From Staphylococcus sp. (GTDB lineage: Bacteria; Bacteroidota; Bacteroidia; Bacteroidales; Muribaculaceae), in contig JAMPDC010000001.1 of assembly GCA_023665865.1 (NCBI GenBank), forward strand, positions 2,113,921-2,177,920: a DNA stretch of 64,000 nucleotides, given 5' to 3'. Every line of letters starts with the position of its first letter. Position 1 is the first letter of the stretch. The notes under the pieces are model-generated. The model worked only from the letters and a program-made list of their open reading frames with translations, searched no databases and had not been told where the DNA came from. The position numbers were made by a program, and so were the translations under genes. This document shows positions 5,612 to 64,000 of this stretch, in pieces.

Positions 5612-5685
5612 GGCGGTTGAAAAGTGTTGTGGGATATTGATTAGATGAAGCGTAGAAAAAACAGCGGAAGAGAAAAAATAAAAAA

Positions 5686-6141
5686 GGTAGCAGGACTATA
5701 AGCCGGGTTATGTCACTGCGGGACTTCTGTCAGGGTCAAGCCCTGAAGGTTGCCGCAGCGCCCGTGTCATTTATCTAAGCGGTGCCTCGCTTTGCTTCGG
5801 CACTCGAGCAGCCTACCCCTCGGCGATGGACGAGCAGCCCATTGTGACCTCCACACAGGAGATTGTGTCACGTGCCGATATACATGGCCTTGCAACCCAT
5901 AAGACGTGCGGCATGTCGTGTCGCCACGACACCCGGTGGGCTCTTACCCCACCTTTTCACCATTGCCCGACGCGGCGGCCGAAGCCGTCAGCATGATGTC
6001 GGGCTGTTGTTTTCTGTCACGTTACTCTACCGTCACCGATAGCTCACTGTTAGAGAGTATGGTGCTCTGTGTTGCCCGGACTTTCCTCTTGCCGCTCCGG
6101 AGATCAACTCCATCAGCAAGCGACACAAGCGTCCTGCTACC
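5686..6141 (-). ncRNA. rnpB: RNase P RNA, bacterial type A
   Basis: This is the catalytic RNA that trims the 5' ends of pre-tRNAs. On the minus strand the 5' region carries the conserved AGAGGAAAGTCCGGG (complement of 6075-6089). The central region has the conserved GGTGAAAAGGTG...AAGAGCCCACCG block (complement of about 5932-5961). The 3' end has ACATAACCCGGCTTAT. The ends pair through an 11-bp P1 helix (GGTAGCAGGAC at 6141-6131 with 5696-5686). The length of 456 bases is slightly above the typical 350-400. Confidence 0.95.
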
Positions 6142-48044: not shown

Positions 48045-48266
48045 ATGGCACGATATACTATTAGACAATGGGAAGAGCAGATCGAGAAGCGCAATGACAT
48101 TACTTTTTTCGAATTCAAATTGAGCGAGAGAAAGGTCATAGAGGTTTACGGCTATGTAAATATGACACAACGCCCTGAGAGTGCTTGCTGGATTGAAGAT
48201 GGAAGGTGTTTTGTGAATATGGAACGTAGACCGGAATATGATCTTTTCACAGAGGCTGCTGTATGA
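48045..48266 (+). CDS. small phage early protein
   Basis: A 73-residue protein, not recognised. Its TGA overlaps the ATG of the primase (ATGA at 48263-48266), so the two are translationally coupled. Confidence 0.6.
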   Translation: MARYTIRQWEEQIEKRNDITFFEFKLSERKVIEVYGYVNMTQRPESACWIEDGRCFVNMERRPEYDLFTEAAV

Positions 48267-51200
48267 TTAGCGATAGAGATAAAGAACGATTACTCGACGT
48301 CTGCAACATCGAAGATGTCATAGGCAGATATGTCGAGCTCCGGAAGGACGGACAGAGGCTTAAAGGCTGCTGTCCCTTCCATTCGGAGCGTACTCCGTCC
48401 TTTGTTGTGACTCCCGCAAAAGGAATGTACTATTGCTTCGGCTGCAAGGAAGGGGGCGATGTCATATCTTTCGTCAAGAAGCAATTTAACCTGACATATG
48501 CCGAGGCGGTCAAATGGCTTGCCAAAGAGTATAATGTCGAGATTGAAGATAACAGTGAGAAGGAAACTGCGGAGCAACGTAAGCTCTCGATGGAGCGCGA
48601 GTCGATGTTTGCGGCAAACAAGGCTGCCGCCCGTTTTTTCGCCTCGCGTATAATGGCTGATGACGACCGTGCGAGATTTGCATTGGACTACGCCCGCAAG
48701 CGCTGGGGCTCTAAGTTCGTTGAGACGGAAGGTATCGGCTTCGCACCGGGAAGTCGTGAGCTCATCACAAATCTCACCGATAAAGGGTTCTCGGCTGAGA
48801 TCCTGGTTAAGGTAGGACTGGCCCGAGAAAAGGATGGCCGGATTTATGACGCGTTCTATAATCGCGTCACAATTCCGATAAAAGATCGTACAGGCAATGT
48901 AATTGGCTTTACGGCTCGAGTCCTCGATGACTCGAAACCAAAGTACATCAATTCTTGTGAGAGCCCTATTTACGTTAAGAATAGCTCCATATTCGGCATC
49001 AACAATGCCGTTAAGCAGGGAGCTAAGGAGGAATTGTTTTACCTTGTGGAAGGTGCGCCCGATGTGCTGCGCTTACAATCCCTCGAGGTGTACAACACTA
49101 TCGCGCCTCTCGGTTCTGCATGGACGGAGAATCAATTCAAGATCCTCCGCCGGTTCAACCCGCGGTTGTGCTTTATCCCGGACATGGATCCGCCGAAAGG
49201 TGAGCCATATGGTACTGGGATAACGTCTGTCATTAAGAATGGTCTCGCAGCGATGGAAGCCGGTTTTGCTGTTACAGTGAAGGAAATACCGGTAGAGGAC
49301 CAGGATGAGAAGCAGGATCCCGACAGTTATTTCAAGAGCCGAAAGATGCTTGAAGAACTACCGGAGGAAGATTTCATTCTTTGGTACGCGGGGAAGCTCT
49401 CCATTGGCAAAGCGACGACAGCTGAGAAATCTGAGGTTGTAAAGACAATTTCCGCGCTGCTGGCTAAGATCGACGACAAGTTGCGTGTACAGATGTACGT
49501 TAAGCAACTGTCGAAGTTAGTTAATGTGCCCGCAGGCATCATAACCAACGTAATCAACGAAAAAGTCACTGAGAATGTAATCGGCAAGTCTAAGCGACCT
49601 GACGCTAAATTGCTTGACCGCGAGTTTTATCAGCGCTATGGCTTCGAGGTGCGCGGCAATCAGTATTGGTCTATGTCTAAAGATGGTGATGATCGGGAGT
49701 GGTCCAACTTCGTAATGGAACCACTTTTCCACATTCAGGATCAGATGAACCCGAAGCGACTCTACAAACTCACCAACATTAGAGGCTATGAGAAGATCAT
49801 GGAGTTTCGTATCGACGAGCTTGTATCAATTCAAAGTTTCAGATGCAAGACGGAAGGTGCCGGCAACTTTATTTGGAAAGCCGGAGCTGCGGAGTTGAAC
49901 CGCCTGAAGGAATTCCTTTATGAAAATACAGAGACAGCGACGGAGATCACTCAGCTTGGGTGGCAAAAGAAAGGTTTCTTCGCCTTCGGCAACGGCGTCC
50001 ATTTCGAGGGACAATGGTACCCGGTGGACGACTACGGAATTGTCAGGCTGGGCGACGTCGGGAACTACTATCTTCCGGCCGCCTCTCGGATCTTCCTCGA
50101 GCAACGCGACTTGTTTCAATTCGAGCGACGCTTTGTTCATACTAATTTCTCGACAGTCACTTTCAGGAAGTACACTGACAAGCTACTGGAGGTGTTCGGC
50201 GACAACGGCAAGGTCGGTATATGCTTTTTTCTGGCCACTCTTTTTAAAGACGTCGTTACGGCTGTTACCAAGAACTTCCCAATGCTCAACTTATTCGGGC
50301 CCAAAGGTTCCGGCAAATCAGAACTCGGGCACTCTCTTATGTCGTTCTTCATCATAAAGAATGAGCCACCTAACATATCGACATCCACAGAGGCGGCACT
50401 CGGCGACACTATAGCCCAGTGTTCAAATGCCCTGGTTCACCTTGATGAGTATAAGAACTCGATCGAGCTGCAACGCCGAGAGATCCTTAAAGGTCTCTAC
50501 GACGGCGTCGGCCGAACTCGCATGAACATGGACCGCGATAAGAAGCGACAGACGACGGCCGTCGATTGCGGAATCATAGTGTCCGGCCAGGAGATGCCTA
50601 CCATTGACATTGCTCTATTTTCCAGGATGCTGTTTTGCACGTTCAATAAGACCGAGTTTTCCCAGGAAGCTAAACGACGATTCGACGAGCTTAAACAGAT
50701 GAGAGATGCTGGTTGCTCTCACCTGGTTCTGCAACTACTCAAACATCGCAAGAAGTTTGAGCATGATTTCCCGGGCTTTTATAAAAGCGCTCTGACTGAC
50801 GTCATCGACGGTATGTCGGGAGCCCCGACAGAAGACCGCATACTTCGCAACTGGGTTGTCATTCTTGCGGCCTTCCGAACACTAATGCCGGTCATCGATG
50901 TCGGCTTCGATTATGCGGAAATGCTCAAGGTATGCATCGAATCGATTAAGCGACAAGATGCGGAGTGTAAGTCCACCAATGAAATTTCTGCGTTCTGGCA
51001 AGCGGTAGACTTCCTTCATCAGAACGGCGAGATCTTCTCCGGGTCGGATTATCGCATCAAGTATGAAAAATCATTCTCCGGACGCGGGCTTGTTGAAAAG
51101 ATTGTATGGCCGACTGCACGTCCGATCCTCTACCTCTCGACAAAACGCGTCATGATGCTTTACAAGAAGAATGGTAAGGCCGTTGGCGACACAACACTTC

Positions 51201-51448
51201 CCGTCGAGTCTCTCAGATTTTATCTCGAGAACTCAAAGGAGTATCTTGGGTTCAAAAACTCAGTCAGGTTTCAGAACTACTCCAATCAACGAGAGTCGAC
51301 TGTCACAGTCCCTCAAGAAGCAGGAGGCGTCGGTATCCGACAGACTTCTCGAGTGGACTGGGCTCTCGCTTTCGACTACCTGGCGCTCAAAGAGGCATAC
51401 TGTATCAATCTGGAAGTAGATGTGTATGCGGAAGATGATGATAATTAA
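48263..51448 (+). CDS. phage primase-helicase
   Basis: A 1061-residue replication protein joining three modules. A CHC2 zinc-binding domain (C37, H40, C58, C61) is followed by a TOPRIM/primase catalytic region (ending with VEGAPDVLRLQ near 265). A C-terminal P-loop helicase-like ATPase has Walker A FGPKGSGKSE near 680 and LDEY near 720. It probably initiates replication of the element. It is the largest gene of the region and suggests an autonomously replicating phage or plasmid-phage. Confidence 0.88.
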   Translation: MISDRDKERLLDVCNIEDVIGRYVELRKDGQRLKGCCPFHSERTPSFVVTPAKGMYYCFGCKEGGDVISFVKKQFNLTYAEAVKWLAKEYNVEIEDNSEKETAEQRKLSMERESMFAANKAAARFFASRIMADDDRARFALDYARKRWGSKFVETEGIGFAPGSRELITNLTDKGFSAEILVKVGLAREKDGRIYDAFYNRVTIPIKDRTGNVIGFTARVLDDSKPKYINSCESPIYVKNSSIFGINNAVKQGAKEELFYLVEGAPDVLRLQSLEVYNTIAPLGSAWTENQFKILRRFNPRLCFIPDMDPPKGEPYGTGITSVIKNGLAAMEAGFAVTVKEIPVEDQDEKQDPDSYFKSRKMLEELPEEDFILWYAGKLSIGKATTAEKSEVVKTISALLAKIDDKLRVQMYVKQLSKLVNVPAGIITNVINEKVTENVIGKSKRPDAKLLDREFYQRYGFEVRGNQYWSMSKDGDDREWSNFVMEPLFHIQDQMNPKRLYKLTNIRGYEKIMEFRIDELVSIQSFRCKTEGAGNFIWKAGAAELNRLKEFLYENTETATEITQLGWQKKGFFAFGNGVHFEGQWYPVDDYGIVRLGDVGNYYLPAASRIFLEQRDLFQFERRFVHTNFSTVTFRKYTDKLLEVFGDNGKVGICFFLATLFKDVVTAVTKNFPMLNLFGPKGSGKSELGHSLMSFFIIKNEPPNISTSTEAALGDTIAQCSNALVHLDEYKNSIELQRREILKGLYDGVGRTRMNMDRDKKRQTTAVDCGIIVSGQEMPTIDIALFSRMLFCTFNKTEFSQEAKRRFDELKQMRDAGCSHLVLQLLKHRKKFEHDFPGFYKSALTDVIDGMSGAPTEDRILRNWVVILAAFRTLMPVIDVGFDYAEMLKVCIESIKRQDAECKSTNEISAFWQAVDFLHQNGEIFSGSDYRIKYEKSFSGRGLVEKIVWPTARPILYLSTKRVMMLYKKNGKAVGDTTLPVESLRFYLENSKEYLGFKNSVRFQNYSNQRESTVTVPQEAGGVGIRQTSRVDWALAFDYLALKEAYCINLEVDVYAEDDDN

Positions 51449-53355: not shown

Positions 53356-53387
53356 TTTGGCTGTTCACAAATTTTATCCTACATTTG
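53356..53387 (+). promoter_or_regulatory. promoter of structured leader 1
   Basis: TTTG (53356-53359), a 20-bp spacer and TACATTTG (53380-53387). Transcription would start at or within a few bases of the A1 arm at 53392. The second leader copy has the same spacing. Confidence 0.75.
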
Positions 53388-53391
53388 TAAT

Positions 53392-53589
53392 GCCAAATTA
53401 AAACAGTTTTTACTGCCGGTGAGTCACGGTTAAAGGCTCGACATCTTTTCGGGCATTTTTTATGCCCACACATAACAGCTACGGCTGTCATATCCTTACA
53501 TTTTCCACTCACTGAGCGGTTACTGTTTTAGTTTGGCGACGGGATATGACAGCCGTTTTTCTGTCTACTAATTGCCAAACTAAAACAGT
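53392..53589 (+). ncRNA. structured leader RNA, copy 1 (A1-A'-A2 switch)
   Basis: Three arms alternate: A1 53392-53407, A' 53522-53537, A2 53574-53589. A' is fully complementary to A2 (16/16) and to A1 with one G-U. Helix D (53416-53424 with 53507-53519) nests inside A1-A'. Helix B (53481-53495 with 53542-53556, 15 bp perfect) overlaps it as a pseudoknot and is followed by TTTTT. Two local hairpins (53421-53440, 53451-53467) are shared with copy 2. A2 ends directly at the ATG at 53590. It is not matched to a known family by me. Confidence 0.75.
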
Positions 53590-53781
53590 ATGAACGAGCA
53601 AAAACAAACAGCAATGTGCCGCTTGAGCGCACAACAAGTAATTTCTCTTTTGGCAGGTATCGGATCTGACCTCACTTTGAGTGGTGGGGATGTCAGCCTC
53701 TCGCAAACCGCCTTAGGTATCTGCCTCCATGTAGACGGTGGTATGGTCGAAATCAACTATATTAAGGAAGGAGGTAAATGA
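53590..53781 (+). CDS. small leader-controlled protein, copy 1
   Basis: A 63-residue protein with a helical N-terminus and a C-terminal beta-rich segment ending in GG. Its C-terminus aligns with the protein after leader copy 2 (D-GGMVEINYIKEGGK against L-EGGTINISVNMKGGEA). The last codons contain AAGGAGG, a Shine-Dalgarno for the next gene, whose ATG overlaps the stop (53778). Function unknown. Confidence 0.65.
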   Translation: MNEQKQTAMCRLSAQQVISLLAGIGSDLTLSGGDVSLSQTALGICLHVDGGMVEINYIKEGGK

Positions 53782-54041
53782 TGCATGGTTTAACTGAAGA
53801 TCTTCTCAACTGTGTGGCCGACTGGATTGCCCGAAACTGGGAGAAGCGTGGCAAAAATCTCTCTTATTTTGTGGCGCAGGTTAAAGCTTCCGGACTGACT
53901 GTTGCCAATCTTGACAACTATCTCGCTGAAAAAGGAGACACATGCGTCATCTGCGTAAATCAGGTATTTGCAGCCATCGTCTACGAGGCCGTTCTAAACG
54001 GATCGTATCTCGGTCCGGAAAAGAAAGGAGGCGAAGCATGA
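53778..54041 (+). CDS. small protein, unknown function
   Basis: 87 residues, starting at an ATG that overlaps the previous stop (ATGA). It is helical and acidic, with two cysteines (CVICVNQ). The C-terminus GPEKKGGEA again places AAAGGAGG before the next ATG. It has no counterpart after leader copy 2. Confidence 0.6.
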   Translation: MMHGLTEDLLNCVADWIARNWEKRGKNLSYFVAQVKASGLTVANLDNYLAEKGDTCVICVNQVFAAIVYEAVLNGSYLGPEKKGGEA

Positions 54042-54088
54042 AAAAGATTTTAATATTAATTAACAAATGGGGGGGGGTAAAATCATGA
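54038..54088 (+). CDS. 16-codon ORF across a G9 tract
   Basis: MKKILILINKWGGVKS, whose frame runs through nine Gs (54069-54077). Both ends form ATGA junctions. Adding one G would place it in frame with the next gene and add about 16 residues to it. A phase-variable N-terminal fusion is thus possible. The ORF could also be only a translational coupling relay. Confidence 0.4.
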   Translation: MKKILILINKWGGVKS

Positions 54089-54384
54089 CTTACGAAGAGA
54101 AAATCGAAGCGGTCATCAATGACCCCGCCACACATGGACTCTCGCCGATGGCACCGGTACTGGCTATGTATTTGAAGAATTTTCGACCACTTGATCCTCC
54201 GGTTCATAACGAGGAGAACAGGACGTCGGAGGATATCATGACTTCTCTTGAAAGCATAGGGACATTCACCATCAATGAAATTGCAGCAACAATGGCCTGG
54301 CTCGGATACAGGTTGACAACTGACCAGTCGGAAAGCTACAATTATGGTGCGTGGGTGTGGGCTATGGAATATACAGGAGCCTAA
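54085..54384 (+). CDS. 99-residue protein, unknown, duplicated at the right edge
   Basis: Starts at the ATG at 54085. An in-frame ATG at 54067 would add MGGGKI through the G tract. The gene recurs at 63892, with a long stretch of near-identical DNA. The sequence is helical with conserved tryptophans in the C-terminal half (AWLGYRL, WVWAMEY). Function unknown. Confidence 0.65.
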   Translation: MTYEEKIEAVINDPATHGLSPMAPVLAMYLKNFRPLDPPVHNEENRTSEDIMTSLESIGTFTINEIAATMAWLGYRLTTDQSESYNYGAWVWAMEYTGA

Positions 54385-54420
54385 TCAGCACATTTTTTTT
54401 ATGTTTATTATAGGTTTATG
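54385..54420. other. short spacer
   Basis: Spacer with a T-rich run after the gene, before the terminator hairpin. Confidence 0.5.
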
Positions 54421-54456
54421 GCCGGTTCTGCCGTGAGGCAGGGCCGGCTTTTCTTT
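54421..54456 (+). terminator. terminator after the leader-1 gene group
   Basis: GCCGGTTCTGCC pairs with GGCAGGGCCGGC (12 bp, two G-U) around GTGA, followed by TTTTCTTT. It closes the leader-1 transcription unit. Confidence 0.8.
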
Positions 54457-56001: not shown

Positions 56002-57042
56002 ATGACTTATCAGCTAACGATTGATGACTATATCGGCCGATGGTGCTACTCAAAACAGTGGGCCAGGAAGGAGCTTGCCAAATTCAAGGGCAAGCATGTC
56101 GATGTTTTGATTACATCTCTCGGCGGTGATCTCGACCACGGCCTCGACATCCGGCAGCAACTTATAGACCATGGCGATGTCACTGTCTATCTTACCGGTT
56201 TTGTGGCTTCTTCGGCTACTGTGATCGCTATGGGAGCCAAGCGAGTAGTTATGAGTAAATATGCCATGTTCCTTGTACATAAATGCTCGAATTTTATTGA
56301 CGCTTGGGGCTCTTACAATGCAGATCAGATGCAGCAGCTTATAGATGATCTGACCGCAAATAAGAAGGAGAATGACAAAATCGACGTTGTCCTCGCCAGT
56401 ATGTATGCTAATCGCTGTGGAAAACAGGTGTCAGATATTCTCGATATTCTTAAGGAGGGTAGGTGGCTCACCGCAGAGGAAGCTCTCGATTATGGGTTCA
56501 TCGATGAAATCGCAGACATAAAGGAGGAAGGTAAACTCAATTTTGGTGTGGATCTCAAGAACAAGTTCAATGCTATGGGACTGTCGCTCGTCGGTCTCGA
56601 GCAACTGGCGGATCCTGAGCCGGAACCGGAACCTGAGAAATCAAACCTTCTCACACGCGTAGTCAAATCAATCTTCAGCGCTGATACCAAAGAAAATAAT
56701 ACAGACACTACACCTAACATGAAGAAAACCAATTTTTCTTTTACTGCCCTATGCTCTCTTTTAGCCCTGGAGTCCATCACCATCGATAATGATGGTGATG
56801 TGACTCTCACGGCGGAGCAGATGGAGAAGATCAACAATCGTATCGCTGAACTCGAAAATGCTTCGTCGTCCCTCGATAAGGATATCAAGGAGAAAGACGA
56901 CAAAATCTCGCAGCTTGAGTCTCAGGTCGAGGCATTGAAAAAGGCCCCCGGAGATGAAACAAATGAAATCGAGGATGAAGCGGGTGAAGACACCACCTTC
57001 TCAGTCTCGGATGTGTATAACTCTATTAAATCTATCATCTGA
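56002..57042 (+). CDS. phage ClpP-type head maturation protease with scaffold domain
   Basis: 346 residues. The N-terminal ClpP/SppA-like domain (about 1-190) has the Ser nucleophile in GFVASSATV (S70) and His in FLVHKC (H93). The C-terminal region is an acidic helical coiled-coil typical of scaffold proteins (about 265-310). A Met at residue 240 (56719) heads MKKTNFSFTALCSLLALES and could be an internal start producing the scaffold alone, as in several HK97-type phages. It overlaps the capsid gene by one base. Confidence 0.85.
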   Translation: MTYQLTIDDYIGRWCYSKQWARKELAKFKGKHVDVLITSLGGDLDHGLDIRQQLIDHGDVTVYLTGFVASSATVIAMGAKRVVMSKYAMFLVHKCSNFIDAWGSYNADQMQQLIDDLTANKKENDKIDVVLASMYANRCGKQVSDILDILKEGRWLTAEEALDYGFIDEIADIKEEGKLNFGVDLKNKFNAMGLSLVGLEQLADPEPEPEPEKSNLLTRVVKSIFSADTKENNTDTTPNMKKTNFSFTALCSLLALESITIDNDGDVTLTAEQMEKINNRIAELENASSSLDKDIKEKDDKISQLESQVEALKKAPGDETNEIEDEAGEDTTFSVSDVYNSIKSII

Positions 57043-63462: not shown

Positions 63463-63494
63463 TTTGCTAACTTAATTTCTTTGTCGTAAGTTTG
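63463..63494 (+). promoter_or_regulatory. promoter of structured leader 2
   Basis: TTTG (63463-63466), a 20-bp spacer and TAAGTTTG (63487-63494), matching the copy 1 promoter in spacing and in distance to the A1 arm. Confidence 0.75.
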
Positions 63495-63498
63495 CAGT

Positions 63499-63706
63499 GC
63501 CAAATAGTCCGATGGTCACACCATCCCGCAGAGCCACGGTTAGAGGCTCGGACATTCTATTCGGGCATTTTTTGTGCCCTTACATACACAGCTATAGGCT
63601 GTCATATCCTATCAATTCTTGACTCTGCGGAGTTAACCATTGGACTGTTTGGCGACAGGGATATGGCAGCCCTTTTTCTGCCTGTAACGCCAAACAGTCT
63701 AATGGT
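63499..63706 (+). ncRNA. structured leader RNA, copy 2 (A1-A'-A2 switch)
   Basis: A1 63499-63516, A' 63636-63653, A2 63689-63706, ending at the ATG at 63707. A' pairs with A1 (two G-U) and with A2 (one G-U). Helix D is CCGCAGAG (63526-63533) with CTCTGCGG (63623-63630), an 8-bp perfect pair of different sequence from copy 1. Helix B (63597-63609 with 63659-63671) has one G-U and is followed by TTTTT (63673-63677). Only GCCAAA of the arms is shared with copy 1. Confidence 0.75.
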
Positions 63707-63895
63707 ATGAACCCAAACAATCAATCAAACCGTGTGGCCTCTGAAAAGGTACGCGGCATCCTCTCAGAACTCGCCGATGCAATCTGCAATGCTCAGGACA
63801 AGGTCACACTCGGTCTATCGGGCAACACTTTCGAAATCCATCTCGAGGGTGGAACAATCAATATCTCTGTAAACATGAAAGGAGGTGAGGCATGA
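63707..63895 (+). CDS. small leader-controlled protein, copy 2
   Basis: 62 residues, related in its last 20 residues to the protein after copy 1. The end MKGGEA encodes AAAGGAGG before the next ATG, whose ATGA overlaps this stop (63892-63895). Confidence 0.65.
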   Translation: MNPNNQSNRVASEKVRGILSELADAICNAQDKVTLGLSGNTFEIHLEGGTINISVNMKGGEA

Positions 63896-64000
63896 CCTAC
63901 GAAGAGAAAATCGAAGCGGTTATCAATGACCCTGCAGCACAAGGCCTCTCGCCGATGGCACCGGTACTGGCTATGTATTTGAAGAATTTTCGACCACTTG
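63892..64000 (+). CDS. second copy of the 99-residue gene, cut by the window edge
   Basis: The first 36 codons match the gene at 54085, and the last 55 bases of the window are identical to it. Synonymous and a few non-synonymous differences lie near the start. No G tract or 16-codon leader ORF precedes it here. Confidence 0.75.
   Translation, partial: MTYEEKIEAVINDPAAQGLSPMAPVLAMYLKNFRPL

Follow-up and report, generated by a model that had tools for sequence, protein, structure and literature searches.

The described systems closest to the RNA leader considered here are (i) the CI RNA of phage P4, (ii) the C4 antisense RNA of phages P1 and P7 (RF01695), (iii) IsrK of Gifsy-1, and (iv) the classical attenuators. 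In P4 and P1 there is a single such RNA per element, and the CI RNA of P4 is made by processing. C4 is transcribed ahead of icd and ant in an a1b1/a2b2 layout, heteroimmune versions of C4 differ in their pairing segments, and a C4-type RNA is defined by a downstream target at the translation start of the first gene. The ant gene of P22 and symE are also held by antisense RNA. One account places the P4 CI RNA between the flanking segments seqA and seqC and ascribes control in the lysogenic state to premature termination; it also describes the short IsrK RNA of Gifsy-1 as an activator of its own translationally silent read-through mRNA, with an antirepressor-like gene downstream (PMC4825925). 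C4, whose motif bears the name c4-a1b1 in another source (PMC2864571), is described as an antisense RNA with icd and antirepressor (ant) mRNA as its targets, P1 ant being held by it (PMC8201110, PMC8546580, PMC10695390).

The window, that is, the whole stretch of 64,000 nucleotides analysed here, holds two copies of a leader in which one segment, A′, is complementary to both an upstream arm (A1) and a downstream arm (A2). Copy 1 lies in a prophage-like stretch, between genes for a DnaG-type primase (48263-51448) and a head maturation protease (56002-57042), and is made up as follows.

53356..53387, + strand: predicted Bacteroidales promoter (TTTG 53356-53359, 20 nt, TACATTTG 53380-53387), from the sequence against the consensus
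53392-53407, + strand: arm A1, 5′ end of the predicted transcript; pairs with A′
53404..53415, + strand: P1 hairpin (CAGT-TTTT-ACTG), which shares bases with the 3′ end of A1; recurs in relatives by eye
53416..53439, + strand: core pseudoknot, with S1 (CCG 53416-53418 / CGG 53427-53429) and S2 (GAGTC 53421-53425 / GGCTC 53435-53439)
53436..53461, + strand: T1, a predicted early intrinsic terminator (GCTCGA 53436-53441 / TCGGGC 53449-53454, T6 53456-53461) that excludes S2
53451..53467, + strand: hairpin H, GGGCAT / ATGCCC around the T run; a covariance-model helix
53481-53495, + strand: 5′ strand of helix B; pairs with B′ at 15/15 positions
53508..53516, + strand: hairpin C, CTC-ACT-GAG; together with 53517-53519 it doubles as the 3′ strand of the long-range helix D
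53522-53537, + strand: arm A′, complementary to both A1 and A2
53542..53560, + strand: B′ (53542-53556) and T run (53556-53560); with B, a second terminator-like element
53548..53565, + strand: hairpin E, GACAG 53548-53552 / CTGTC 53561-53565; excludes B-B′
53574-53589, + strand: arm A2, ending at the start codon (ATG 53590)

The TAnnTTTG box stands immediately 5′ of A1, with TTTG 20 nt upstream, an arrangement that fits the Bacteroides consensus (TAnnTTTG / TTTG) as one source gives it (PMC7366714); the start of the copy 1 transcript at A1 is predicted from this box. On recomputation of the complementarity, all three arms lie where a first-pass annotation had placed them, and A2 does abut the ATG at 53590. 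A1 and A′ are 94% complementary over 16 nt at a spacing of 114 nt, the single mismatch being G·U, and A′ and A2 match at 17 of 17 positions, counting the first base of the ATG; as proposed, A1 and A2 are rivals for A′. The 15-bp helix B followed by T5 also holds (15/15 paired, T5 at 53556-53560), and B-B′ with its T run is conserved in relatives. Folding energies are far below those of shuffled sequences on the + strand (z −4.68, 0/200) and likewise on the − strand (z −4.83); because the − strand folds as well as the + strand, folding energy alone cannot pick the strand.

Searches of Rfam, at gathering thresholds and at E up to 10, find no RNA family (C4, the riboswitches, and Bacteroidales-1 included) at the window leaders or at 8 relative loci, in keeping with the first-pass annotation, which had recognized no known riboswitch, retron, or ribozyme class; the sub-threshold matches in the window are few, unrelated, and far below the thresholds. 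Descent from the C4 lineage (RF01695) is set aside for want of a match at these same loci. An ordinary class A bacterial RNase P RNA lies elsewhere in the window (5683-6140, − strand). Among the titles listed by a literature search, run mostly outside subscription journals and without preprints, none concerns this RNA.

The leader resembles P4 CI, as the account of that RNA depicts it, in that one transcript carries an antisense segment between two segments that both pair with it. In contrast to CI RNA, which is made by processing, the leader here has its end predicted at a T run; further differences are up to five copies per genome, private arms, an A2 that abuts the start codon, and the lack of an Rfam match. 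With C4 of P1/P7, which the sources cited above describe as aimed at antirepressor mRNA, it would share an antisense mode of action. The C4-type target at the translation start of the first gene is also found, an ATG lying within −5 to +7 nt of the end of A2 in 106 of the 108 leaders that keep all three arms. The hosts, however, are different, most operons here carry small genes without known function, and no Rfam match links the two. IsrK, according to one source, shares a short stopped RNA alongside a silent read-through mRNA, one promoter, and two exclusive folds, but it activates, and its pairing partner is described as lying inside orf45 and not as an arm at the start codon (PMC4825925). 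Classical attenuators share the opposition of an antiterminator (here the S1/S2 pseudoknot) and a terminator (here T1), whereas this leader goes on to another terminator-like helix and a block on the start codon, both formed from shared strands. The best reading is that the leader would work like P4 CI and P1 C4 while being, by Rfam, no relative of theirs. The first-pass annotation overlooked this likeness to phage self-antisense immunity RNAs, as well as the choice between T1 and the pseudoknot and hairpin E, which makes B′ two-faced.

Copy 2, in which all three arms are replaced in concert relative to copy 1, has the following parts.

63463..63494, + strand: predicted promoter of copy 2 (TTTG 63463-63466, 20 nt, TAAGTTTG 63487-63494), from the sequence
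63499..63706, + strand: copy 2 leader, with A1 63499-63516, A′ 63636-63653, and A2 63689-63706
Interior of copy 2, + strand: T1 63546-63566, T run 63568-63573, B 63597-63609, B′ 63659-63671, and E 63665-63682
63707..63895, + strand: first gene of copy 2, 62 aa

The arms of copy 2 (A1 GCCAAATAGTCCGATGGT, A′ ACCATTGGACTGTTTGGC, and A2 GCCAAACAGTCTAATGGT) pair mutually, and their likeness to the arms of copy 1 is concentrated in the conserved GCCAAA/TTTGGC end. Pairing with A′ departs from complementarity at three positions, each a G·U on the + strand, and A2 ends at the ATG at 63707. The three-arm plan is not a product of chance, since it recurs in this second window copy and in 124 distinct leaders in all.

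These 124 leaders, both window copies included, come from Bacteroidales genomes and some viral contigs. In the first model search, 57 of 114 matches were used, namely 56 of the 64 at 38 bits or more together with L061_2798; 8 duplicates and the other 49 matches (all at most 32.2 bits, for the most part echoes from the opposite strand) did not enter the set. Adding L020, L024, L031, and the two window copies brought it to 62, and removal of identical cores to 59; without L061_2798, which was dropped as a false positive, 58 remain. A later model search supplied 68 of 79 matches, 3 duplicates and 8 opposite-strand echoes being dropped. A DNA search of the family is positive in 23 of 198 genomes, the window's own included. 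The covariance model R1, built from 28 sequences and cropped to omit A1 and A2 save a few bases, matches 71 of 397 genomes in the window's family and 3 of 395 across the phylum, again with the own genome counted, and 9 of 393 across the order (the own genome plus 8 in 8 other families). Of its two matches outside the order, L207 has the arms, with a short A2, and is the sole positive among the 31 genomes searched in its family; the other, L208, is a tRNA-like stretch and not a leader. Genomes with more than one copy are common: by R1, five copies occur in G161, a genome of the window's own genus, and four each in two others (G011 and G041).

Among viral sequences, a pattern scan of IMG/VR gave 13 stretches, 12 of them with a model match; L070, without one, was rejected. 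A protein-first search of IMG/VR for relatives found none, and an exact-core scan of the same database gave 2 stretches, neither of which shows a leader on inspection. The GTDB pattern scan gave 39 stretches, those from unrelated phyla being mostly left out of model scoring. Reference phages and plasmids yield only short, weak blastn matches (2 and 3 records, respectively); one of the phage records, from human faeces (L119), is a genuine relative at 89.1 bits by the covariance model, and the other (L120) has no covariance-model match.

Variant leaders with a different interior (core GTTCCGTCCCGTGTGGAG) and the same plan were drawn in by iterated HMM search. In L043, L053, and L066 such a variant follows an ordinary leader in tandem, and intermediates exist; across the leaders compared, the three-arm plan thus reads as conserved beyond sequence. 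Tandem leaders a few hundred bases apart are seen in L043 (9260-9900), L053 (8674-9330), L066, L069 (11537-12039), L048 (7643-8218), and L171 (1956-3280). In L043 and L053, the open reading frame of the first leader crosses the second leader and stops overlapping or beside the second ATG. L207 (1490-1944) combines a different-core leader with a SymE toxin gene whose ATG overlaps A2.

All three arms are kept by 108 of the 124 leaders, which pass both pairing scores with at least 10 shared A′ positions, so that one segment finds its complement on either side of it in the same transcript; the A1-A′ score is passed by 115 and the A′-A2 score by 112, and 16 leaders fall short of the three-arm standard. 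A TAnnTT[TAC]G box stands 3-4 nt 5′ of the A1 helix in 78 of the 108, none being found in 18. Since the A′ 16-mers have a mean pairwise identity of 36% (61% for B′; 103 leaders), the arms drift fast yet stay complementary. In a cognate-pairing permutation test on 51 of the 58 leaders, which like all permutation and shuffle statistics given here ignores kinship among sequences, the mean score is 30.5 for cognate against 15.7 for non-cognate A1-A′ and 32.8 against 16.6 for A′-A2 (0/20000 permutations each). The cognate arm is the strict best partner in 37 of these 51 representatives for A1-A′ and in 42 for A′-A2, and the same-sense control, A1-A2, gives no signal among them.

The departures from perfect pairing carry information on the strand. 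Transition differences between A1 and A2 keep both A′ pairs on the + strand in 179 of 198 cases and on the other strand in 19; 40 further differences are transversions. Because this first alignment rewarded G·U, the strand test was repeated with G·U and A·C scored alike. Under such neutral scoring, A1-A′ has 143 G·U against 27 A·C (116 of the 124 leaders), with 77 leaders showing more G·U than A·C, 5 fewer, and 34 equal, and A′-A2 has a weaker asymmetry of 49 against 28 (116 leaders). Since the non-Watson-Crick departures of A1/A′ are mostly G·U and not A·C, it is the + strand RNA that pairs; a minus-strand function is disfavoured by the same counts, although that strand folds well. The sequence comparisons show three arms that pair at the RNA level, with A2 meeting the start codon.

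The interior helices B, S1, S2, H, and C were assessed in 53 aligned leaders. B, S2, H, and C were part of the model behind the alignment, and their figures therefore lean in their own favour: 96.6% of cells are paired in B, where 12 of 15 pairs have changed in both strands, 96.2% in S2, with double changes in all 4 counted pairs, 87.7% in H, and 96.7% in C. S1, which lies outside the model, has 90.8% of its cells paired. Hairpin E, also outside the model, forms 5/5 pairs in 45 of 56 leaders (0/5000 permutations; 56 of the 58 leaders entered, with a few wrong anchors kept as misses). The block A′-(4 nt)-B′ has two partner sets, A1 and B upstream or A2 and E downstream, and all four helices covary.

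T1, again outside the model, was noticed through a terminator scan, which found 4 terminator-like sites in the stretch where 1.0 would be expected and which, with a loop limit of 8, did not list B-B′. Its stem extension covaries in the 103 of 124 leaders with anchors found (anchors that include a T run of at least 4), shuffles reaching the observed value in 0/3000 for each of pairs 1 and 2 and in 53/3000 for the third, with no signal for the fourth. In a second test, the paired cells and the covariation score of T1 beat the shuffles (0 and 1 of 500), and the counts of doubly changed pairs and of pair types do not. T1 and S2 share GCTC and so are mutually exclusive; at the level of sequence, the leader thus possesses the hallmark of a transcription attenuator, a leader terminator (T1) with a conserved, exclusive antiterminator (S2). 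The T run after B′ averages 7.4 T in 12 nt (115 of 124 leaders). For helix D, which the first-pass annotation had nested inside A1-A′, the GTGAG/CTCAC pairing is indeed present in copy 1, but its conservation is weakly supported: the inner pairs are matched by 5/5000 shuffles in two tests, one of them on 43 of 124 leaders, and the cognate-pairing permutation test on the 51 representatives gives no signal. A further candidate, helix F (AGCC/GGCT, 5′ of B), is frequent but without covariation and is not claimed. The comparisons as a whole establish exclusive partner sets, a choice between T1 and the pseudoknot, and a B-B′ helix followed by a T run in the predicted RNA. The proposal of an attenuator or antiterminator, or of a switch that hides the start codon, had been staked beforehand on covariation among homologues, on the lack of an Rfam match, and on a transcript starting near 53392; the helices do covary and no family matches, which supports it, a start at that place is predicted from the promoter box, and the function is what we infer from the sequence.

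Computed energetics bear on the order of the two folds. Nested folding, by a program that cannot score pseudoknots, predicts A1·A′ in 106 and B·B′ in 2 of the 108 leaders when the RNA ends in the T run; for the RNA through A2, it predicts A′·A2 in 82, A1·A′ in 26, and B·B′ in none of the 108. The A′:A2 duplex is stronger than A1:A′ by a mean of 2.6 kcal/mol, and in 82 of 108 leaders. The nested folds and duplex strengths are such that A1 can be the first to hold A′ and, in most leaders, then loses it to A2. A1·A′ and B·B′ together form a pseudoknot, because B lies inside the A1-A′ span and B′ outside it; given the 4-nt linker and the free 5′ end, this arrangement appears sterically reasonable. 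Non-cognate arms within one genome pair at −12 to −13 kcal/mol against −27 to −30 for cognate ones. Non-cognate arms from different genomes pair at −11/−10 kcal/mol, so those of the same genome (−12/−13) are not weaker, and the orthogonality of the arms may therefore be drift. Two of the G161 copies could cross-pair (−20 to −23 kcal/mol).

We favour, with moderate confidence, a self-antisense attenuator leader that silences phage-borne operons and is like P4 CI and P1 C4 in its working. Such a leader probably keeps virus genes quiet, much as the known phage immunity RNAs do; we infer both the direction of control and the action in trans. Transcription would start at A1, and the choice between the S1/S2 pseudoknot and T1, both of which need the same GCTC, would come first. 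RNAs that stop after B′ would be leader RNAs of ~170 nt carrying A′, and read-through RNAs would be folded by A′·A2 such that the start region is hidden. In cis, A1 may delay or relieve the A′·A2 block; pairing of A′ in cis cannot set T1, because A′ is made after it. In trans, A′ of a finished leader RNA would bind A1 of a nascent copy, whereupon helix D could open the pseudoknot and allow T1 to form. The net outcome would be a silenced operon, and because the arms differ between copies, the silencing would be private to each copy. Several findings count against parts of this scheme: nested folding, blind to the pseudoknot, favours A1·A′ over B·B′, helix D, which the trans step requires, is weak, and the multi-copy state (up to five per genome) departs from the P4/P1 parallel of one RNA per element.

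A sensor that acts purely in cis is unlikely. In it, a ligand or phage protein bound by the S1/S2 pseudoknot would settle both whether T1 forms or transcription reads through and which of the two folds is taken, with no trans RNA. The pseudoknot core (CCG..GAGC..CGGTTA..GCTC) is well conserved and placed exactly to exclude T1, each partner set draws on strands of the other, and many copies have this core in common, as expected of a single sensor. Such a sensor leaves unexplained, however, the fast drift of three long complementary arms and their privacy to each copy; the downstream genes vary, and some relatives keep the arms around a quite different interior.

Trans-activation in the manner of IsrK, with A1 of the stopped leader capturing A′ of the silent mRNA, freeing A2, and turning translation on, seems rather unlikely: 106 of the 108 predicted folds of the stopped RNA already have A1 engaged with A′, and in 82 of 108 leaders A2 is the tighter binder of A′. 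This reading draws on the near-identity of A1 and A2, on the predicted silence of the long RNA in 82 of 108 leaders, on the antirepressors encoded in some operons, and on the precedent of Gifsy-1, for which one source reports an antirepressor-like gene downstream (PMC4825925).

The operon that self-antisense silencing would control behind copy 1 comprises the following.

53590..53781, + strand: opening gene of the operon (63 aa), in a BLAST cluster of 17 and without a match in Pfam or PHROG
53781..54384, + strand: two further small genes, the first (86-87 aa) with an SD-like GGAGG ahead of it, the second of 99-105 aa
about 54420..54456, + strand: strong intrinsic terminator (predicted) closing the cassette, with 13 pairs, 9 of them G-C, and a T-rich tail; from the terminator scan

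With its own predicted promoter and strong terminator, the window cassette resembles a moron. Across the relatives, first genes are short (median 84 aa, n=107). The Pfam set began with 107 first genes plus a single second gene, a first gene of 30 residues being omitted; a further 9 proteins contributed 6 more first genes, each the first open reading frame of at least 45 aa downstream; L197, L198, and L203 stand outside the scanned set. Among the 113 first genes, 8 have a Pfam match (Rha 1, AntA 1, Bro-N 2, KilA-N 2, SymE toxin 1, DUF4379 1), 6 are of antirepressor type, and L074 has Rha as its second gene. Because 105 of the 113 are without a known domain, the link to antirepressors rests on few cases.

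Shine-Dalgarno sequences are unusual for Bacteroidota. Operon-internal genes here carry AAAGGAGGTGA-like ones (53764-53783 and 54021-54040 in the window, and also in relatives), and the first gene is without such a site. Of the 108 scanned proteins, 69 have GG within their last six residues. The third small gene of cassette 1 (MTYEEKIEA..., 54085-54384) recurs almost unchanged behind the first gene of cassette 2 (63892-64000), so cassettes share or swap genes. Downstream of cassette 1, the segment 54505-54740 is dense in CTACATTTGTAG-like direct and inverted repeats and looks iteron- or operator-like by eye. HicA/HicB-like small gene pairs, also recognized by eye, adjoin leaders in L044 (15350-16830), L108, and L041 (6286-7006), a helix-turn-helix domain being found for one of these pairs only.

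The gene content also bears on a type I toxin-antitoxin-like addiction cassette, in which a small toxin, mostly hydrophobic, would be encoded by the first gene and countered by the leader RNA as antitoxin. A strongly hydrophobic 19-residue stretch is present in 60 of the 108 scanned proteins, and SymE is the first gene in one relative outside the order. As SymE is the one toxin recognized, the first genes of the window itself fall in a non-hydrophobic cluster, and 0 of the 108 scanned proteins match a PADLOC defence family, we consider such a cassette very unlikely. A DNA-level element is hardly credible: its 16-18 bp direct and inverted repeats around the promoter-proximal segment, in several copies and some in tandem, could suit recombination, inversion, or protein binding with RNA pairing incidental, but the mismatches are G·U on the + strand (179 against 19 of 198; 143 G·U against 27 A·C with neutral scoring), an asymmetry on which recombination repeats are rejected, A2 meets the ATG in 106 of 108 leaders, and the interior helices covary.

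Self-antisense silencing, carried over to the relatives, leads to a wider proposal, which we offer tentatively and judge to fall somewhat short of probable. The leaders may constitute a large Bacteroidia phage RNA superfamily of private, fast-diversifying self-antisense switches, each with its own trans-repressor RNA, two terminators, and a start-codon lock, in which orthogonal copies side by side would set immunity (or addiction) groups; it would be an independent, multi-copy counterpart of the P4 and P1 RNAs. As far as found, this superfamily is unnamed, and as a way of working it would be a variant of the phage self-antisense attenuators.

To our knowledge, gene silencing in temperate phages of gut Bacteroidales is little understood. 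The leader is an RNA device both compact and widespread (present in 71 of 397 family genomes, its own included) that comes with exact predictions of pairing partners, so that RNA-based control and superinfection immunity in gut Bacteroidales phages become directly testable, and its copy-specific arms would lend themselves naturally to use as mutually orthogonal RNA switches in Bacteroides.
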